The notes under the pieces: model-generated | Database searches by the model: none | What the model was told of the DNA's origin: nothing | What the model saw: only the letters and a program-made list of their open reading frames with translations | Translations under genes and position numbers: made by a program | Virus record (IMG/VR): IMGVR_UViG_3300025769_000825 | Coordinates: 1 to 24,222 of that record | Strand: one strand, 5' to 3' | DNA: 24,222 bases | From: a virus | Part shown: positions 977 through 23,797 of the stretch, piece by piece | Layout of the letters: each line of letters begins with the position of its first letter | How positions within the stretch are numbered: position 1 is the first letter of the stretch

Positions 977-2020
977 ATGAAAAAATTAACATATTTAATA
1001 CCACTTCTTTTTATTAACTTCTCCCAAGCGGATCCGGTGGGTGACTGTACTGCAGGAACACAATATTGTGAGGACAATGGGTTAACAACAATTAACACTA
1101 CGGTGACGACAAACACTAATACCAACACCAATAACAACACCAATACAAATAATAACACTAACGTCAATACAAATAATAACACCAATGTATCGACGAACAC
1201 TAACAACAACACCAACGTATCGACGAATACAAACAACAACAATAATGTTAGTAACTCGACGTCGAACAATACTAATACGAACAATAATATCAATACTTCA
1301 ACTTCTAATTCAACGGTTAATTCTACGGTAAATCAAAATGTCAATAATACGAGCACTTCTAACAACACTAACGTCAACACTTCGACTAACACGAATATCA
1401 ATTCATCTACGTCAGACTCAAATGTTACTACTAATAACAAAAATATTAACGAAAATAACACAAAAACTGACAACACGAATAGAAACATCAACGAATCGAA
1501 TAGCACGCAAACTATCAACCAAAATGTAAAAAGCAAAGCACCCCCTGCTTCTGCTATAGCGCCTAGTATTATGTCTTACTCACAAGACCTCTGTACTGTA
1601 GGTCGTTCTGGTGCATTTCAAGGGCAAGTATTTGGGTTCTCTACAGGAGCAACTGTAACTGACGAGAACTGTGAACGCTTAAAACTTTCCAAGTATCTAT
1701 ATGATACCGGCATGAAAGTGGCTTCCGTATCTATACTTTGTCAAGACCCGAGAGTATTTAAGGCTATGGAAATGGCTGGTACTCCTTGCCCTTACCAAGG
1801 TCAGATAGGTAAGGAAGCGACAAAAGCTTGGGCAGAAAACAAATCTAAAAGGCCTGATGCTAAAGAACAAGAAAAGTTATTTATACAAAAATGCACGCAT
1901 GAATTTAATCCTAGTAGAAACAAAATAAATAAAGACGTTGTGGGGCTAGTCAAAAAAACTTACACAAGAAAAACTAAAACCAACAGACAATGCAAAAAAG
2001 AATTTTATGCTACGCAGTAG
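977..2020 (+). CDS. Exported Asn/Thr-rich low-complexity protein
   Basis: 347 residues. Residues 1-18 form a Sec signal peptide: M-K-K, a hydrophobic core, and a probable signal peptidase I site after S-Q-A. Residues about 37-185 are almost only Asn, Thr and Ser with occasional Val/Ile, in T-N-T-N-N-N and T-N-V-S-T-N-T-N-N-N units. Residues about 190-347 are a normal-complexity domain with several Cys (D-L-C-T-V-G, E-N-C-E-R-L-K-L, C-Q-D-P-R-V-F, T-P-C-P) and a basic tail. I know similar C-terminal domains only as uncharacterised proteins of marine phages. The gene overlaps the next by 31 bases, which also encodes an exported protein, so the pair is probably co-translated. An exported or virion-displayed protein is likely; function unknown. 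Confidence 0.82.
   Translation: MKKLTYLIPLLFINFSQADPVGDCTAGTQYCEDNGLTTINTTVTTNTNTNTNNNTNTNNNTNVNTNNNTNVSTNTNNNTNVSTNTNNNNNVSNSTSNNTNTNNNINTSTSNSTVNSTVNQNVNNTSTSNNTNVNTSTNTNINSSTSDSNVTTNNKNINENNTKTDNTNRNINESNSTQTINQNVKSKAPPASAIAPSIMSYSQDLCTVGRSGAFQGQVFGFSTGATVTDENCERLKLSKYLYDTGMKVASVSILCQDPRVFKAMEMAGTPCPYQGQIGKEATKAWAENKSKRPDAKEQEKLFIQKCTHEFNPSRNKINKDVVGLVKKTYTRKTKTNRQCKKEFYATQ
1096..1530 (+). repeat. Degenerate Asn/Thr-coding microrepeats within the exported protein gene
   Basis: A tract of short AAC/AAT/ACT/ACG-rich units. The clearest pair is two adjacent 30-base copies at 1181-1210 and 1211-1240 differing at 3 positions by eye, each encoding T-N-V-S-T-N-T-N-N-N. Synonymous AAC/AAT and ACA/ACT/ACG variation among units suggests the amino-acid pattern is kept while the DNA drifts. 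Copy number could change by slippage. Confidence 0.75.
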
Positions 2021-4005
2021 CTAGTCTGCTATCATTTAGTGTATATGGACAATACACTTACGAATCAGGACAAGACTTATATCACCTGCAAACAAACGCT
2101 AACAATTTTGAGGGCGAGCTAGCATACGAAGTTTCTGATGATGGTATTAGCCCTGCAATTGACCTTTCTTTTGATTTTACTTTCTATGGCTCTACATTTA
2201 GCCAAGCAAGGATGGCAACGAATGGATGTTTGCATTTTGGGAATAGTGGTAGCTATTGCAATGACTATACTCCTGACCCTATTAACGGGCAACACACCTA
2301 TACCATATATGCTTTCTGGACTGACTTAATTAGAGACTCTGATTCTCGTATGAAGTCTTGGGGAGACTCAAGCAAAATGATATTTGGTTGGTACGACATG
2401 AGAGAGTACAACCGAGCATCAGACAACAGCTTTGAGATAATACTTTGGAACAATAACTCTTTTGATTTGCGTTACGGTCATTTAGATATTATTAATCATG
2501 ATGTATTAATAGGTGAAGTAGGATCTAAAAAAGAAGATTCATACACTTATTATTATCATGATGAATGTAATACTGGATCAACCAACTCGTCTACTTGTGT
2601 AAACACTGATTGGAATAATTCAGACAAAAACCAAAATTTAGAAAATGGGGGGTCTTTGTATGGGGCAGGTAGTGGCAATAATATTGATTGCAGCAATCCT
2701 TTAAATGATTCTAGTTGTAGTGGTTATGCAGATGCTTATCAAACTCAACAATGCAATATTGATCAATTATATTCAGAATCGTGTCCTTACTACTGGGAGG
2801 CTTATGATGACTGGCAGTGTGGTTTAGACCCGCAGTATGGGCCTTTTTGTCCGGGGTATAGACAAGATGCAGACATAGGGTATTTTCAAGAAGAAGAATA
2901 TTTTGACTATGGGTATGAAGAGGAATATTTTGGCTACGAAGAAGAACCTATATTTGAAGAATATGTATTTGAGGTTGAAGAACAGTTTTTTGAAGAGCCA
3001 GAGTTTATTTTTGAAGAAGAGGTAGCCTTTGAGGTTTATGAAGAATACCTAGAGCCTTTTGAAATAGGACTAGAGTTTGAAGACCCACTAGAACTGCCCC
3101 TAGAAGATTTACTGGTAGAGGAATTTATATTTCAGGAAACATTTTTAGTAGAAGACTTTACTGAACCAGAAACTTTTATTGAGATAGAAACAATTGAAGA
3201 GCTAGAAGAATGGTTTGAAGAAGCAGTCATGGAAGAGGAACTCGTTTTTAACGAACCCGAAGAACTTGTAGAAGAAGTAATTGAGGAAAAACCCATAGAA
3301 GAAACTCCAGAAGAATTTATTACAGACGAAAAAAGTTCTATAAGCAAAGAAACTGCTTTAAAAGTTGTTGCATCAACTATAACAACAGCAAAACAAAGTG
3401 TAAGTGGTACTGACTCGGGTAGTTCTGTAGGGGCCCAAGGGGGAACATCTACAACAGCTTCTAACATGAGTAGCTCTTCTGGGGGCATAAGCACTAGTAG
3501 TTCCCCAAGTATTTCAGATCAGTTTGCATCTTCTACTGCACAAAACAACCAGGTATTAAACATGAGCGCAACTGTTTCGTCTTCAACAGGAACGCAGACA
3601 GATACTGTAGAGACAACCAGTGTCGCAGTTGATACCACTAGTACACAAACCATACAAAGTCAGATAGATATATCTATGCCTACAAATTCTACAGACACCG
3701 AAACAGAACAGTTAGTGGAGGATGTTATTGCACAAAACATGCAGGCTGCACAAGAAGATGTAATAGCTAAACAAGAAGAAACTGGGGAGTATGGGTCTGA
3801 AGACCTTGTAATTTCTTATATAGGTTTTGTACCTGGATTTAACACCTATAGAGCAGTATCAATACCAGAAAAAGAATTTTGGTATGAGCCAAAAAACATT
3901 TATACTAATAACAGACTATTAGATAACACTGCAGCTTTTTATGAGCTTGCAGGTCAAAGCATTACAACTTTGACTAATTTAAAAGAAATGCAACCAAATT
4001 TATAG
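1990..4005 (+). CDS. Exported multidomain protein: nidogen-like domain, Cys repeats, Glu/aromatic tract
   Basis: 671 residues. Residues 1-20 are a signal peptide with likely cleavage after V-Y-G. Residues about 40-180 resemble a nidogen-like (NIDO) extracellular beta domain (F-T-F-Y-G, M-A-T-N-G-C-L-H-F-G, Y-A-F-W-T-D-L, then F-E-I-I-L-W). Residues about 232-290 hold three ~22-residue Cys repeats built on C-x-[GP]-Y-x-x-[AD]-Y and Q-C. Residues about 295-455 are a long Glu/Phe/Tyr tract (repeated E-E-E-Y-F, F-E-E). Residues about 456-600 are Ser/Thr-rich, followed by a conserved-looking C-terminal domain (G-F-N-T-Y and Y-E-P-K-N-I-Y). The start overlaps the upstream gene by 31 bases; starting here gives an intact signal peptide. 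An extracellular or envelope-facing role is inferred. No catalytic motif is evident. Confidence 0.82.
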   Translation: MQKRILCYAVASLLSFSVYGQYTYESGQDLYHLQTNANNFEGELAYEVSDDGISPAIDLSFDFTFYGSTFSQARMATNGCLHFGNSGSYCNDYTPDPINGQHTYTIYAFWTDLIRDSDSRMKSWGDSSKMIFGWYDMREYNRASDNSFEIILWNNNSFDLRYGHLDIINHDVLIGEVGSKKEDSYTYYYHDECNTGSTNSSTCVNTDWNNSDKNQNLENGGSLYGAGSGNNIDCSNPLNDSSCSGYADAYQTQQCNIDQLYSESCPYYWEAYDDWQCGLDPQYGPFCPGYRQDADIGYFQEEEYFDYGYEEEYFGYEEEPIFEEYVFEVEEQFFEEPEFIFEEEVAFEVYEEYLEPFEIGLEFEDPLELPLEDLLVEEFIFQETFLVEDFTEPETFIEIETIEELEEWFEEAVMEEELVFNEPEELVEEVIEEKPIEETPEEFITDEKSSISKETALKVVASTITTAKQSVSGTDSGSSVGAQGGTSTTASNMSSSSGGISTSSSPSISDQFASSTAQNNQVLNMSATVSSSTGTQTDTVETTSVAVDTTSTQTIQSQIDISMPTNSTDTETEQLVEDVIAQNMQAAQEDVIAKQEETGEYGSEDLVISYIGFVPGFNTYRAVSIPEKEFWYEPKNIYTNNRLLDNTAAFYELAGQSITTLTNLKEMQPNL

Positions 4006-4870: not shown

Positions 4871-5104
4871 ATGGCTGACAATGATCTAAAAACGGTTAAT
4901 TTCGATGGTTTTGAATATAAAATTGAAGATTTAACCCCGAGAGCAATAGAAGGTTTTAACATGCTTGTTAAATTACAGCAAGAAATTGCTAATATTTCTT
5001 ATGATTTGCGTATTAATCAAGCAGCACAAAAACTAATATCTGAGGAACTTAAAACAACCCTTAAGGAAGATAAGATTAAGTATGTGGAGAAAGAAGAAGA
5101 ATAA
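4871..5104 (+). CDS. Small helical protein in the lysis cassette (DUF6447-like?)
   Basis: 77 residues. It begins with a beta-like segment containing V-N-F-D-G-F-E-Y-K-I-E-D-L, followed by a helical, coiled-coil-like remainder with a charged end. The layout resembles short phage proteins of the DUF6447 type, but I assign that only tentatively from memory. A strong Shine-Dalgarno (AAGGAG) precedes the start. Its 3' end overlaps the endolysin start by 23 bases, implying coupled translation. Role unknown. Confidence 0.7.
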   Translation: MADNDLKTVNFDGFEYKIEDLTPRAIEGFNMLVKLQQEIANISYDLRINQAAQKLISEELKTTLKEDKIKYVEKEEE

Positions 5105-5474
5105 CTGGAAGTACTTTACTGAGGATGAAGTAAAGTGTAAACATACAGGTTTATGTGAAATGGATGATGACTTCATGCATAAACTTGATACAATACGAGA
5201 AGAGGTAGGGGTACCTTTTGTTATTACTAGCGGGTATAGAGATAAGACCCATCCTATAGAAGCTAAAAAATCCAAGCCAGGAGCCCACGCATCGGGCAAG
5301 GCGATAGACATACTTATACGAGGAAAGGATGCCTTAAAACTTATTGAGGTAGCCCTTAAACACGGTATAACGGGTCTAGGTGTAAAACAACATGGTGATA
5401 GCAGGTTTATCCATCTCGACACCCTTGAAGCAGAGGCAACGCGCCCGCGCCCCCACATATGGAGTTACAAATGA
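5082..5474 (+). CDS. Endolysin, M15-family zinc peptidase
   Basis: 130 residues. The protein matches the small single-domain M15 peptidases (D-Ala-D-Ala or L-Ala-D-Glu carboxypeptidase-like). It has an N-terminal Y-F-T-E-D-E-V-K-C-K-H-T-G segment, T-S-G-Y-R at about 49-53, the zinc motif H69-x6-D76 (H-A-S-G-K-A-I-D) and a second H-x-D at H111/D113. These enzymes cut peptidoglycan stem peptides. The start at 5082 keeps the family's N-terminal segment; the next in-frame ATG would remove it. Its stop overlaps the next gene as ATGA. Lack of a signal peptide fits holin-dependent release. Confidence 0.9.
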   Translation: MWRKKKNNWKYFTEDEVKCKHTGLCEMDDDFMHKLDTIREEVGVPFVITSGYRDKTHPIEAKKSKPGAHASGKAIDILIRGKDALKLIEVALKHGITGLGVKQHGDSRFIHLDTLEAEATRPRPHIWSYK

Positions 5475-10062: not shown

Positions 10063-10092
10063 GATAAAACTATGAAATGTGGAGGCATAAAC

Positions 10093-10191
10093 ATGGCATA
10101 TACCTACGGTAAAAAGAAGTCTATGACTAAAAAACCTAAATCTATGAAGATGAAAGGCTATGGTAAAAAGACTAAAAAGAAAAAGAAGTAA
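10093..10191 (+). CDS. Tiny Lys-rich protein (32 aa)
   Basis: 32 residues, of which nearly half are Lys, with Tyr/Gly/Met between them. It begins M-A-Y-T-Y-G and ends with K-K-T-K-K-K-K-K. A canonical Shine-Dalgarno (GGAGG at 10081-10085) sits 7 bases upstream of the ATG, which makes this short frame believable. It is the first of a run of tiny basic genes. Nucleic-acid binding by charge is a guess. Confidence 0.65.
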   Translation: MAYTYGKKKSMTKKPKSMKMKGYGKKTKKKKK

Positions 10192-10197
10192 GTAAAT

Positions 10198-10422
10198 ATG
10201 GACAAGCTAGGAGTGCTTCGTGCACAAAAAGAAGTGTTGCACGGCCAACGTGCTAAGATAAGTTTAGATTTAGAAGTGCTGTTGAACAACCCAACTAGCA
10301 TCCCTGAGCACACAGAATATAGTGTTGAGTTAGATAAGTTAGTGGGTCAATTAGCAGAAGTAAATGATAAAATAAAAATTATTGATTTTTTAATATCAAC
10401 ATCGGAGAAACCAGATGGCTAA
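10198..10422 (+). CDS. Small helical coiled-coil protein
   Basis: 74 residues, not recognised. Two helical segments separated by a Pro-containing loop (N-N-P-T-S-I-P-E-H), with leucine spacing suggesting a helical hairpin or coiled coil (L-R-A-Q-K-E-V-L and L-V-G-Q-L-A-E-V-N-D-K-I). It is close to neutral charge, unlike its neighbours. Its 3' end overlaps the next gene by 8 bases. Confidence 0.65.
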   Translation: MDKLGVLRAQKEVLHGQRAKISLDLEVLLNNPTSIPEHTEYSVELDKLVGQLAEVNDKIKIIDFLISTSEKPDG

Positions 10423-10558
10423 CGAAAAATACATGCAAGCTGCAAAAGCCCGTAAAAAGAAAAGAAAAAAAGGTACACTTGCTTCTTTGTATGGAGACCC
10501 TAATAAAGTAACTCGCGGTGATATTATTACTGCAGCCATAAAAAATAATAAAAAATGA
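10415..10558 (+). CDS. Small basic protein (47 aa)
   Basis: 47 residues from an ATG that overlaps the previous gene by 8 bases and has GGAG about 7 bases upstream (ATCGGAGAAACCAGATG). The N-terminal third contains A-R-K-K-K-R-K-K-G. The rest holds S-L-Y-G-D-P-N-K-V-T-R-G-D-I-I, a pattern I have seen only in uncharacterised marine phage proteins. Its stop overlaps the next start as ATGA. Function unknown. Confidence 0.65.
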   Translation: MANEKYMQAAKARKKKRKKGTLASLYGDPNKVTRGDIITAAIKNNKK

Positions 10559-10746
10559 GACAGCCAAAAGAAGGTGAGACAGAGACTAACGAAAGTTTAG
10601 GTAAAGTAAAAAATATTAAGATTGAGCATAAACCGCCTCAATATGCATCTTCAACTGATGAATATACTCTTATGAGTCCAGAAGAAGTTTCAGAGTATTT
10701 TGATAATATACCTATGACTGAGGAGAAGAAAAATGGCAAGAACTAG
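10555..10746 (+). CDS. Small acidic/mixed hypothetical protein
   Basis: 63 residues. Polar and acidic (G-E-T-E-T-N-E-S and S-P-E-E-V-S-E-Y-F-D), followed by a short charged tail. There are no recognisable motifs. It starts in an ATGA overlap with the preceding gene and ends 14 bases into the next one. It is one of the few non-basic members of this gene run, so it might partner the basic proteins, which is speculation. Confidence 0.6.
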   Translation: MRQPKEGETETNESLGKVKNIKIEHKPPQYASSTDEYTLMSPEEVSEYFDNIPMTEEKKNGKN

Positions 10747-10924
10747 AAAAAAACCCTCTCAAAAAGTTGTAAAGAAAAGCATTTCTAAACGACAAGAAGC
10801 TTCTTTAAAAAGGCATAGCAAACATCACTCTACAAAACATATGGCTTATATGAAAAGACGTATGCTTATGGGCGATACATTTAGAACTGCACACAAAAAG
10901 GCCCAGAACAAAGTTGGTAAGTAG
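10733..10924 (+). CDS. Small strongly basic protein
   Basis: 63 residues, about 40% Lys/Arg/His: T-R-K-K-P-S-Q-K-V-V-K-K, then R-H-S-K-H-H-S-T-K-H-M-A-Y-M-K-R-R-M-L-M. It has a good Shine-Dalgarno (GAGGAG, 10721-10726) inside the upstream gene. The stop overlaps the next gene's GTG by one base. Nucleic-acid binding or virion-internal packaging protein is inferred from charge only. Confidence 0.65.
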   Translation: MARTRKKPSQKVVKKSISKRQEASLKRHSKHHSTKHMAYMKRRMLMGDTFRTAHKKAQNKVGK

Positions 10925-11181
10925 TGGCTGCTAAGCGAAACTATCGTAAAGAGTACGATAACTACCATTCAAAACCCACACAAAAGAAACGCAGAGCTGG
11001 ACGCAACAAGTCTAGGCGTATCATGGTGCGCTTAGGTAAAGCTAAAAAAGGCGATGGTAAAGACGTAGCACATAAAGATAACAACCCTTTAAATGCTAAA
11101 GTAAAGAATATTAGGATGGAATCTAAAAAATCTAATAGATCTTTCAGACGCACAAAAACATCCCGCAGAAAGAGAAAATGA
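10924..11181 (+). CDS. Small basic protein with HNH-like motif, GTG start
   Basis: 85 residues starting at GTG, one base overlapping the preceding TAG. Very basic at both ends. In the middle, at about residues 47-72, it has D-V-A-H50-K-D-N-N-P-L-N57-x4-N62-I-R, with spacing like the H-x-D-x-N-x2-N core of HNH/AP2-type endonuclease domains in phages. It is much shorter than a typical HNH enzyme and its first catalytic His pair is incomplete (A-H rather than H-H). It may be a degenerate or DNA-binding-only derivative. Confidence 0.6.
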   Translation: MAAKRNYRKEYDNYHSKPTQKKRRAGRNKSRRIMVRLGKAKKGDGKDVAHKDNNPLNAKVKNIRMESKKSNRSFRRTKTSRRKRK

Positions 11182-11363
11182 ACATAATTTGGTGTACTAT
11201 AATACTAGCTTTAATAATTATGGCTGGAGTTTTTTATATGGAATATATTCAAAAGTTTTTTAAAAAAATGAAAAAAAGCTATGCGAAATTGTTTAAATGG
11301 GGTTTAACCCCCGATAAACCAGAACCCCCAAAAAAAAGAGGGCGCCCAAGGAAGAAGAAATAA
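11178..11363 (+). CDS. Small membrane protein with basic AT-hook-like tail
   Basis: 61 residues. A strong hydrophobic segment at residues 1-22 (I-I-W-C-T-I-I-L-A-L-I-I-M-A-G-V-F) is followed by a basic amphipathic stretch (F-F-K-K-M-K-K). The tail ends in K-K-R-G-R-P-R-K-K-K, which contains the R-G-R-P core of the AT-hook that grips the minor groove of AT-rich DNA. The start overlaps the previous stop as ATGA, the stop overlaps the next start as TAATG. A membrane-tethered DNA-binding peptide is the literal reading, but the tail may just be a basic run. Confidence 0.6.
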   Translation: MNIIWCTIILALIIMAGVFYMEYIQKFFKKMKKSYAKLFKWGLTPDKPEPPKKRGRPRKKK

Positions 11364-11542
11364 TGCCAAAAAAACCAGTTAAAAGAAAAACTAGTAAAAG
11401 AAAAGGTGCTACACCTACAAACCCAAGCTTGTATGCAAGGGTAAAAGCAGAAGCTAAACGTAAGTTTAAAGTATATCCAAGTGCATATGCCAACGGTTGG
11501 TTAGTGCGTACTTATAAAAAACGTGGTGGTGGGTATAGATAA
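11363..11542 (+). CDS. Small basic DUF5872-like protein
   Basis: 59 residues. The basic N-terminus (K-K-P-V-K-R-K-T-S-K-R-K) is followed by the motif L-Y-A-R-V-K-A-E-A-K-R-K-F, then Y-P-S-A-Y-A-N-G-W-L-V and Y-K-K-R-G-G-G-Y. I recognise this from small proteins shared by marine phages and large eukaryotic viruses, probably the family catalogued as DUF5872; the number is from memory. Both ends are in TAATG overlaps with neighbours. Function unknown. Confidence 0.68.
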   Translation: MPKKPVKRKTSKRKGATPTNPSLYARVKAEAKRKFKVYPSAYANGWLVRTYKKRGGGYR

Positions 11543-11844
11543 TGGCTAAACCTACGGGTGGATTAACTGCATGGTTTGGTAAAGGGCCAAAAGGTGACTG
11601 GGTTGATATTGGTGCACCAAAGAAAAAAGGTAAATATCAAGCATGTGGTAGAAAATCTGCTAAAGGTAAAAGCAAGCGTAAGTACCCAAAATGTGTACCA
11701 AGATCAAAAGCTAATAGCATGACTGCAGCACAAAAGCGCAGCGCTGTTAAACGTAAACGTGCAGCTGGCAACCCAGGTGGTAAGCCACGAAATGTAAAAA
11801 CTATTGTAAAAAGAAGGAGAACCCGTGCCAAGAAAAAGAGATAA
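11542..11844 (+). CDS. Small basic conserved viral protein (G-L-x-A-W-F type)
   Basis: 100 residues. It has G-G-L-T-A-W-F near the N-terminus, then G-D-W-V-D-I-G-A-P, A-C-G-R-K-S-A-K and K-Y-P-K-C-V-P, then A-Q-K-R-S-A-V-K-R-K-R and G-G-K-P-x-N-V-K-T. I know this signature from uncharacterised proteins in marine phages and giant viruses, usually beside a Y-P-S-A-Y-A-N protein, exactly as here. Two Cys (about residues 34 and 52) could bind metal, which is inference. The start overlaps the previous gene as TAATG. Confidence 0.7.
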   Translation: MAKPTGGLTAWFGKGPKGDWVDIGAPKKKGKYQACGRKSAKGKSKRKYPKCVPRSKANSMTAAQKRSAVKRKRAAGNPGGKPRNVKTIVKRRRTRAKKKR

Positions 11845-11845
11845 T

Positions 11846-12109
11846 ATGCCTAAGCGGAATAAAAAGAATTTCCGTCCAACTAAAAAAGGCGCTGGTATGA
11901 CCAAAGCTGGAGTAGCAGCGTACAGAAGAAAAAATCCTGGGTCTAAATTAAAAACTGCAGTTACTGGTAAAGTAAAAAAAGGTAGTAAAGCTGCTAAAAG
12001 ACGTAAGTCTTATTGCGCTAGATCTGCTGGTCAAATGAAAAAATTCCCAAAAGCAGCAAAAAACCCTAATTCAAGGTTGAGGCAAGCAAGAAAACGTTGG
12101 AAGTGTTAA
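11846..12109 (+). CDS. Small basic conserved viral protein (DUF6321-like)
   Basis: 87 residues from ATG 11846, one base after the preceding stop; this is preferred to the in-frame GTG at 11825 because the spacing matches the neighbours. Motifs: G-A-G-M-T-K-A-G-V-A-A-Y-R-R, N-P-G-S-K-L-K-T-A-V-T-G, S-Y-C-A-R-S-A-G-Q and a C-terminal R-K-R-W-K-C. I recognise it as a family shared by marine phages and large viruses, possibly DUF6321 (number from memory). It is the last gene of the rightward run. Confidence 0.7.
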   Translation: MPKRNKKNFRPTKKGAGMTKAGVAAYRRKNPGSKLKTAVTGKVKKGSKAAKRRKSYCARSAGQMKKFPKAAKNPNSRLRQARKRWKC

Positions 12110-22544: not shown

Positions 22545-22722
22545 CAGTTAGTCTCCACAATAAATAAGCAGTACATCCCATAGCAACTAGGATGCCCACT
22601 AGCATAATAAAATGATGCAATGATGTTGCAATGGCTAATAAGCCAAGAACTACTGCACCTCCAGTTAGAACAGATACACCAAATTCTTTAGCGTGCTGTT
22701 CAAATTTCGATGATTTCACCAT
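22537..22722 (-). CDS. Small two-TM membrane protein
   Basis: 61 residues. Charged N-terminus (K-S-S-K-F-E-Q-H-A-K-E-F) followed by two hydrophobic segments: V-S-V-L-T-G-G-A-V-V-L-G-L-L-A-I-A-T at about 17-34 and I-M-L-V-G-I-L-V-A-M-G-C-T-A-Y-L-L at about 39-55. It has a short loop with H-H between them. It overlaps the metallopeptidase gene by 23 bases and is translated with it. Not recognised; a holin-like shape by length and topology, but the holin of this phage is elsewhere. Confidence 0.7.
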   Translation of the reverse strand: MVKSSKFEQHAKEFGVSVLTGGAVVLGLLAIATSLHHFIMLVGILVAMGCTAYLLWRLTDG

Positions 22723-23797
22723 AAGGCGCTTCTCCTTTTTCTGTAGTTACCCAGAGAACTGGATAAGGGGGTTGATCTCCAAAGTCGTCTGAACCTAAAT
22801 CAGTGAGATACACTAACGCAGCTACACGTGGGTGCTTTTCGTTAATGTAATCAATAACAGGACTAAACATAGTTCCGCCTCGACCTTGGTACTCAACTTT
22901 GAGTGGTAATGATTCACGTGTGTATTCATCATCTTTGTGAACTTCAGTATCGCATTGAATAAAATGGATACGTTCTGGACTTAGATCACGCAAAATATGA
23001 GATGTTTCACTGGTAAAAGTTTGTAATTCTTCATCACTTACTGAACCAGATGTATCAACTGCAATAGCAATTTCTTCAAGACAAGGGTTGTACATAGAAG
23101 GAAGATACATACCTTGCCAGATAAAACGTCGGTTAGGCCGTATCCAACTAAAATCAGAATTGGTATTAGCCCGCAAAAATCTTGCAAGTACTGCACGCCA
23201 ATCAACTTTAGGTTTTACAATATCTTCAATAAGAGTATTCATGTTAGCAGGTAGTTTGCCTTGTGCTCTTGCTTGTTCAGCTGCTTGTTGTATTGCAACA
23301 GTTAGTTGAGATTCAACAGCACCAACAGATTCACTGGATCCTGCATCAGGGTGGTCTAGAACATCGCCAGCACCTTTAGCACTCAACAGGGCGCCAAAGC
23401 CCTCTGGAGGTTCGGGCAATATACTGTATACATGCTCGGTAGTCATGTCGGCGTATTGTTCATCGAGAAGACCACCCGATGGAAGAATAAAAGCATTACT
23501 TTTAAGAATAAGATTAATAACGTAATCTGCAGCCACATTCCATTTTTCTGCATGGCGTTCTTGTCTACGTGTGTGATGCATAAATACAACATGCATAACT
23601 TCGTGAGCAAGAAAACCTATACGTTCTTCGGGTCTAAGTTTTTCAAACCAGATAGGATTGTAAAACAAATGTTTACCATCAGTGGCACCTGTATCTATAT
23701 CGTCACGCTCTACAGGTTTGAGTCTAAGACATAAGGTACCAAAAAATGGACTGTCAAGAATAAGACGTGATCGTGCACGTACAAAAGAATCATTCAT
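22700..23797 (-). CDS. Metallopeptidase/VWA-domain protein (DUF2201-type)
   Basis: 365 residues. The N-terminal domain has a zinc site H65-E66-V-M-H69 within A-H-E-V-M-H-V-V-F-M-H-H and a likely third ligand D91 in W-N-V-A-A-D-Y-V-I-N, as in putative metallopeptidases with a VWA partner (DUF2201). The C-terminal domain is VWA-like with a MIDAS motif D248-T-S250-G-S252 and later acidic-rich strands. Members usually occur beside an AAA+ MoxR-type ATPase; none is visible in the window, though the gene upstream is cut by the edge. A TAGGAG Shine-Dalgarno lies 5-6 bases before the ATG. Role in phage is unknown; a virion-maturation or anti-host activity could be imagined. Confidence 0.88.
   Translation of the reverse strand: MNDSFVRARSRLILDSPFFGTLCLRLKPVERDDIDTGATDGKHLFYNPIWFEKLRPEERIGFLAHEVMHVVFMHHTRRQERHAEKWNVAADYVINLILKSNAFILPSGGLLDEQYADMTTEHVYSILPEPPEGFGALLSAKGAGDVLDHPDAGSSESVGAVESQLTVAIQQAAEQARAQGKLPANMNTLIEDIVKPKVDWRAVLARFLRANTNSDFSWIRPNRRFIWQGMYLPSMYNPCLEEIAIAVDTSGSVSDEELQTFTSETSHILRDLSPERIHFIQCDTEVHKDDEYTRESLPLKVEYQGRGGTMFSPVIDYINEKHPRVAALVYLTDLGSDDFGDQPPYPVLWVTTEKGEAPYGEIIEI

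Follow-up and report, generated by a model that had tools for sequence, protein, structure and literature searches.

Phage T4 loads its head with internal proteins, IPI-IPIII and Alt, that accompany the DNA and leave with it on ejection; T4-type internal head proteins bear an N-terminal capsid-targeting sequence that the prohead protease cleaves. If the three core proteins described below (g8, g9 and g10) are small basic head proteins that accompany DNA, they would, by analogy, work alike, although no sequence relation between the two sets was found. Packaged basic DNA-associated proteins are also known from chlorovirus PBCV-1, and protamine-like proteins from adeno-, asfar- and baculoviruses (PMC3281028). 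These are likewise basic and tied to packaged viral DNA, but their hosts are eukaryotic, g8-g10 are not simple Arg-rich polycations, and the likeness comes without shown homology. For tailed phages the view is that they rely on cations and polyamines, and a 2012 study states that evidence is lacking for any large share of basic proteins in neutralising the phage genome (PMC3281028). The closest described relative of the locus studied here is T4-GC119, a long protein of T4-like cyanophages whose gene lies between those for gp15 and the terminase large subunit and which contains homologous modules.

The window analysed in this work is a 24,222-base stretch of virus DNA from a tailed phage. Ten small ORFs (g1 to g10) of 32-100 codons each lie at 10093-12109, all on the plus strand, exactly where the initial annotation had placed them. 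The genes up to 10062 run rightward and encode tail fibre and tail-tip proteins, an M15 peptidase (5082-5474, with the cluster about 4.6 kb downstream) and a 664-aa protein matching phrog_511, an 'internal virion protein' family. From 12197 on, the genes run leftward and serve replication (a family A DNA polymerase, a DUF5906 protein and an SNF2-type helicase). The ten-ORF cluster closes the rightward late operon, ahead of these replication genes; capsid and protease genes were absent from the 24,222-base window. Elsewhere in the window, a plus-strand gene at 977-2020 encodes a protein of 347 aa that likely has a signal peptide, contains a long low-complexity stretch rich in Asn and Thr and has no Pfam match, and the end of this gene is overlapped by a second plus-strand gene (1990-4005) for a 671-aa secreted-looking protein with long acidic repeats rich in Glu, Phe and Tyr. 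The minus-strand gene at 22700-23797 encodes a putative DUF2201 metallopeptidase with a VWA-like domain, and the PHROG label 'HNH endonuclease' for its family looks wrong.

From g1 to g10, the spacings between neighbours are +6, -8, -4, -14, -1, -4, -1, -1 and -20 bases, the last changing to +1 if g10 begins at the ATG at 11846 and not at the GTG at 11825. The overlapping succession described earlier was thereby borne out, except that the final overlap can reach 20 bases where a maximum of 14 had been given. Eight of the ten products are strongly basic, with net charges of +15 (g1), +11 (g3), +19 (g5), +27 (g6), +13 (g7), +18 (g8), +33 (g9) and +32 to +34 (g10). The other two, g2 and g4 (-4 each), are mildly acidic, in agreement with the two acidic or neutral members reported before. 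Comparison of the window with three relatives (L091, L080 and L100) gave dN/dS values of 0.03-0.59 over all ten genes, lowest for g6, g8, g9 and g10, and homologues of all ten ORFs were found in other contigs. The ten ORFs are therefore real genes under purifying selection. Among the matches listed, the full ten-gene string occurred only in the window, L090 and L091, and three further loci carried it without g4. Within the cluster, internal promoter sites were no more numerous than in shuffled sequences and no informative repeats were found. An NCBIfam search returned no matches, and an anti-phage defence function was rejected because none of the PADLOC models matched g2-g10.

The seven genes upstream of the core appear to be variable passengers, that is, interchangeable accessory members of a basic-protein cluster. 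The first, g1 (10093-10191; alternative start at 10072), encodes a Lys-rich peptide of 32 aa with homologues in at least 7 loci, and g2 (10198-10422; 74 aa) matches phrog_1811 (E 6.5e-8), occurs in at least 19 loci and has a dN/dS of 0.06-0.13. The 47-aa basic product of g3 (10415-10558) has relatives with an EF-hand or dockerin-type loop, which is degenerate in the window (YGDPNKVTRGD). Very small Lys-rich proteins with such a loop, namely that at L175:4165-4290 and relatives of g3, are encoded beside capsid genes in phages. Only the nearest relatives carry g4 (10555-10746; 63 aa, dN/dS 0.59), which was present in 3 loci among the matches listed, while the basic 63-aa g5 product (10733-10924; phrog_31838, motif KHSKHHTxKHM) is a recurrent accessory member with homologues in at least 23 loci and also in cyanophage P-SCSP2.

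Family matches relate g6 (10924-11181, GTG start; basic, 85 aa) to the small phage HNH endonucleases (PF13392 HNH_3, phrog_4590), with which it shares the general-base His, the central Asn and the last Asn. Unlike in those enzymes, Ala stands in the window clade where the motif has its first His, a metal ligand (VAH versus VHH, the remainder being conserved), and the HNH_3 score of 19.4 bits lies under the cut-off of 24.8, which makes an active HNH nuclease doubtful; in one g6 relative (L109) the score exceeds the cut-off. Despite the loss of this His in the window clade, g6 has a dN/dS of 0.03-0.04, and judging from these residues it is plausibly an inactivated nuclease retained for DNA binding. 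The 61-aa g7 product (11178-11363; at least 6 loci) combines a hydrophobic N-terminal segment with a basic tail (GRPRKKK). Because of this segment a membrane anchor is more probable for g7 than a life as a soluble basic protein, which corrects the earlier picture of the cluster.

The core consists of the last three genes. The basic 59-aa g8 product (11363-11542; at least 136 loci), with the motif YPSAYANG, scored 39.9 bits against Pfam PF19197 (DUF5872; cut-off 27.5), a match that covers model positions 1-38 of 116 only. The basic 100-aa g9 product (11542-11844; phrog_23735, at least 143 loci) belongs to a family with the pattern GLxAWF...WVDIG...C...YPKC, in which L8, W11, W20, G30, C35 and C51 are invariant. 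For g10 (11825-12109; 94 aa, or 87 aa from the ATG at 11846; at least 148 loci), the score against Pfam PF19846 (DUF6321) was 46.9 bits (cut-off 28.5), with G17, Y26, L35, R52, C57 and R59 invariant and a W and the last C present in more than 90% of members. Median dN/dS across the three families was 0.05-0.09. The motifs singled out in the initial annotation as those of marine phage and large virus proteins do mark three real families, and DUF5872 has been reported in algal virus CpV-BQ1, but large-virus relatives were not confirmed for g9 and g10. Our literature search returned this one algal virus paper on DUF5872 and none on DUF6321.

An AlphaFold2 model of g10 built from 71 sequences predicted a domain made up largely of helices (mean pLDDT 82) that had no match in the PDB by sequence or by fold. 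Its confident matches in a viral library were mostly DUF6321 proteins, including a virion protein of cyanophage S-SCSM1. The g9 model was of low confidence (pLDDT 67.7), and we took its weak structural matches only as agreeing with the fusion described below. No DNA-binding fold was recognised in the sequence and structure searches. Together, the fold predicted for g10 and the conservation of Trp, Cys and Tyr residues point to a specific structure and not to a plain polycation. Protamines are Arg-rich, of low complexity and without a fixed fold, whereas g10 is predicted to be folded and Lys outnumbers Arg; plain protamines were accordingly rejected for both g9 and g10 on their invariant Trp and Cys, and for g10 also on its predicted fold.

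To follow the core across phages, viral contigs were scanned independently with g10 and with g9. The loci kept were the best matches to the window proteins, so that the near side of each family was sampled, and all locus counts refer to the matches listed. Where at least 2.5 kb of flank was available on both sides, g9 was present in 60 of 65 g10 loci and g10 in 59 of 64 g9 loci. The complete g8, g9 and g10 set lay within 2 kb in 113 of 115 cases among the matches listed, and complete sets used only two of the six possible gene orders (77 times g8-g9-g10 and 38 times g10-g8-g9) amid 42 distinct pairs of flanking families. Besides hundreds of IMG/VR contigs, records of pelagiphages, cyanophages, roseophage and vibriophage contain these families. 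The possibility that these families never co-occur elsewhere is answered by this repeated clustering, and g8-g9-g10 is one conserved functional unit, a real module.

A second line of evidence comes from T4-GC119, which as a query matched 492 phage records. Its proteins (PSSM2_123, SSCSM1_29 and SCREM2_137; PHROGs including phrog_727 and phrog_10346) are single long polypeptides with extra domains, whereas the window encodes three separate basic ORFs. In S-BM3_185, S-SCSM1_29 and S-B43 the modules follow one another as g9, g8, g10, which differs from both orders of the separate genes. For S-BM3_185 the E values were 2e-7 (g9), 3e-23 (g8) and 9e-14 (g10), and the modules of the triple fusion scored well above 1000 locally shuffled copies; in the P-SSM2 protein the g9 module scored no better than shuffles. 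The g10 domain lies at the extreme C-terminus, with at most 1 residue after it in 232 of 236 proteins and at most 3 in 67 of the 69 longer than 150 aa. Such a natural fusion of three otherwise adjacent genes is strong evidence that the three proteins act together.

The fused proteins also connect the core with the virion. Mass spectrometry of CsCl-purified S-CREM2 virions identified ORF137 from 4 unique peptides (4.1% coverage; PMC10665884 Table 3). This relative carries the g10 module only, and its overall net charge is acidic (-20). The triple fusion S-SCSM1_29 bears the database label 'virion protein', and the paper on its genome gives 45 virion proteins by mass spectrometry (PMC9602691). 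Relatives in S-B43 and RN05-S are annotated as 'structural protein', and a virion proteome of 41 proteins is given for S-SM1 by Sullivan et al. (PMC3037559). No virion proteomics of the separate small proteins turned up in the literature search. Computed tryptic peptides of 7-30 residues number one for g10 (8% coverage), one for g5 and four for g9, and with so few peptides virion proteomics could have missed them. The earlier suggestion that the cluster's products are packaged in virions thus gains indirect support from homologues, through the mass-spectrometry detection in S-CREM2, the annotation in S-SCSM1 and the fusion.

On this basis, the reading that we favour, with a probability of roughly 0.45, is that the core is a virion-associated module made late, which acts in the head and touches the DNA packaged there. 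Homologues support the virion association; DNA binding is our inference, and Lys/Arg richness alone does not prove it. Very different phages encode the same core either as adjacent small genes among late head, packaging and tail genes or as one fused protein. In the window phage, g8, g9 and g10 would be late products that join one another via conserved sites with Trp, Cys and Tyr and become part of the particle within the head. There their basic surfaces would touch the packaged DNA, or the route by which it enters and leaves. The proteins might help to organise or protect the DNA while it is being packaged, or accompany it into the next cell. One copy of every basic member of the cluster sums to +168. 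For an illustrative genome of 40 kb (80,000 phosphates), some 10% of the charge would be offset by about 50 copies of every basic member, which allows for an effect on the packaged DNA but does not imply one.

The neighbourhood of the core in relatives bears on this reading and on its alternatives. Counting small plus-strand genes within 2 kb of the core, core excluded, and calling strongly basic those with a net charge above 0.15 per residue, we found 53% strongly basic near the core versus 7% farther off on the same contigs, among the matches listed. Recurrent near-core families were GLWANIHAKRKR (at least 32 loci), GSGRRLYTDENP (at least 30 loci), g3 (at least 27 loci), g5 (at least 20 loci) and several Lys/Gly-rich peptides. 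The large proteins encoded at the flanks included a major head protein, the terminase large subunit and two portal families, and further flanking families comprised a virion structural protein, an endolysin-like family (several relatives) and tail genes. In the T7-like cyanophage P-SCSP2, g8 and g3-, g5- and g9-like genes lie between the scaffold and capsid genes, and pelagiphage HTVC033P has a run of 7 tiny basic genes of which the last is g10-like. The same clusters contain a basic protein rich in RNGGKVKxKGM repeats (L011:2111-2407), which matches the SAP domain marginally (E 0.008).

These surroundings would also suit assembly or packaging cofactors acting on the prohead, portal or terminase, such as adaptors, maturation factors or minor head and neck parts, whose charge would serve protein-protein or transient DNA contacts while the packaged genome is not organised. 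The genes adjoin those for terminase, portal, scaffold and capsid, T4-GC119 sits in the gp15-gp17 neighbourhood, and the conserved Trp, Cys and Tyr residues and the predicted g10 fold would fit such proteins. This is one of the two main rivals, though we consider it less likely than the favoured reading: in the window and in HTVC033P the cluster comes after tail or lysis genes, and adaptors would have no need for a whole neighbourhood enriched in basic proteins.

The other main rival, likewise improbable, is that only g8-g9-g10 form a unit and that the rest is an insertion-tolerant hot spot of the late region, gathering unrelated small genes with no ten-gene system. The accessory content does vary, with g1, g4 and g7 in just 3-7 loci among the matches listed, an HNH-derived gene (g6) is present, and Sullivan et al. 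place T4-GC119 together with an endonuclease in a possible mobile cassette (PMC3037559). Against a chance collection stand the local excess of strongly basic neighbours, the return of the same families in many loci, and the joint presence of g5, g3, g8 and g9 relatives in the unrelated P-SCSP2.

Somewhat less probable again are unpackaged late factors that would bind the host nucleoid, replicating phage DNA or RNA inside the cell and condense, protect or regulate it. Charge, small size and the descent of g6 from a DNA-binding nuclease family are in keeping with this, but the virion data on T4-GC119 relatives and the clustering with head and packaging genes argue against it. Cationic lysis-aiding or antimicrobial peptides would find some favour in the upstream M15 peptidase gene, the endolysin-like family beside several relatives and the hydrophobic segment of g7, but they are very unlikely given the fusion to large virion proteins, the conserved and predicted folded g10 with its two Cys, and the many contexts without lysis genes. 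Finally, spurious or untranslated ORFs, as might be suspected from their very small size and biased composition, are ruled out for practical purposes by purifying selection in 10 of 10 genes, conserved overlaps, families in more than 100 contigs and a fused homologue detected by mass spectrometry.

Altogether, our analysis is consistent with the view that g8-g9-g10 is a virion-associated module of the head. Its parts were partly known, as two DUFs and one hypothetical cyanophage cluster, and in the literature searched we found the three nowhere described as one module. A broader and speculative extension, which we think rather unlikely as it stands, is that many ocean phages, among them members of the most abundant pelagiphage group, package a shared set of dedicated basic proteins (g8-g9-g10 and members that can be exchanged) to organise head DNA, as a chromatin-like strategy so far unrecognised in tailed phages and kept as a mobile cassette across unrelated lineages. 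If packaged DNA is indeed organised by the core, that would be new and would run counter to the idea of tailed phages depending on cations and polyamines (PMC3281028). Each core family has so far been a DUF or 'hypothetical', and the tie to one fused cyanophage virion protein turns this set of unknowns into a single testable question.
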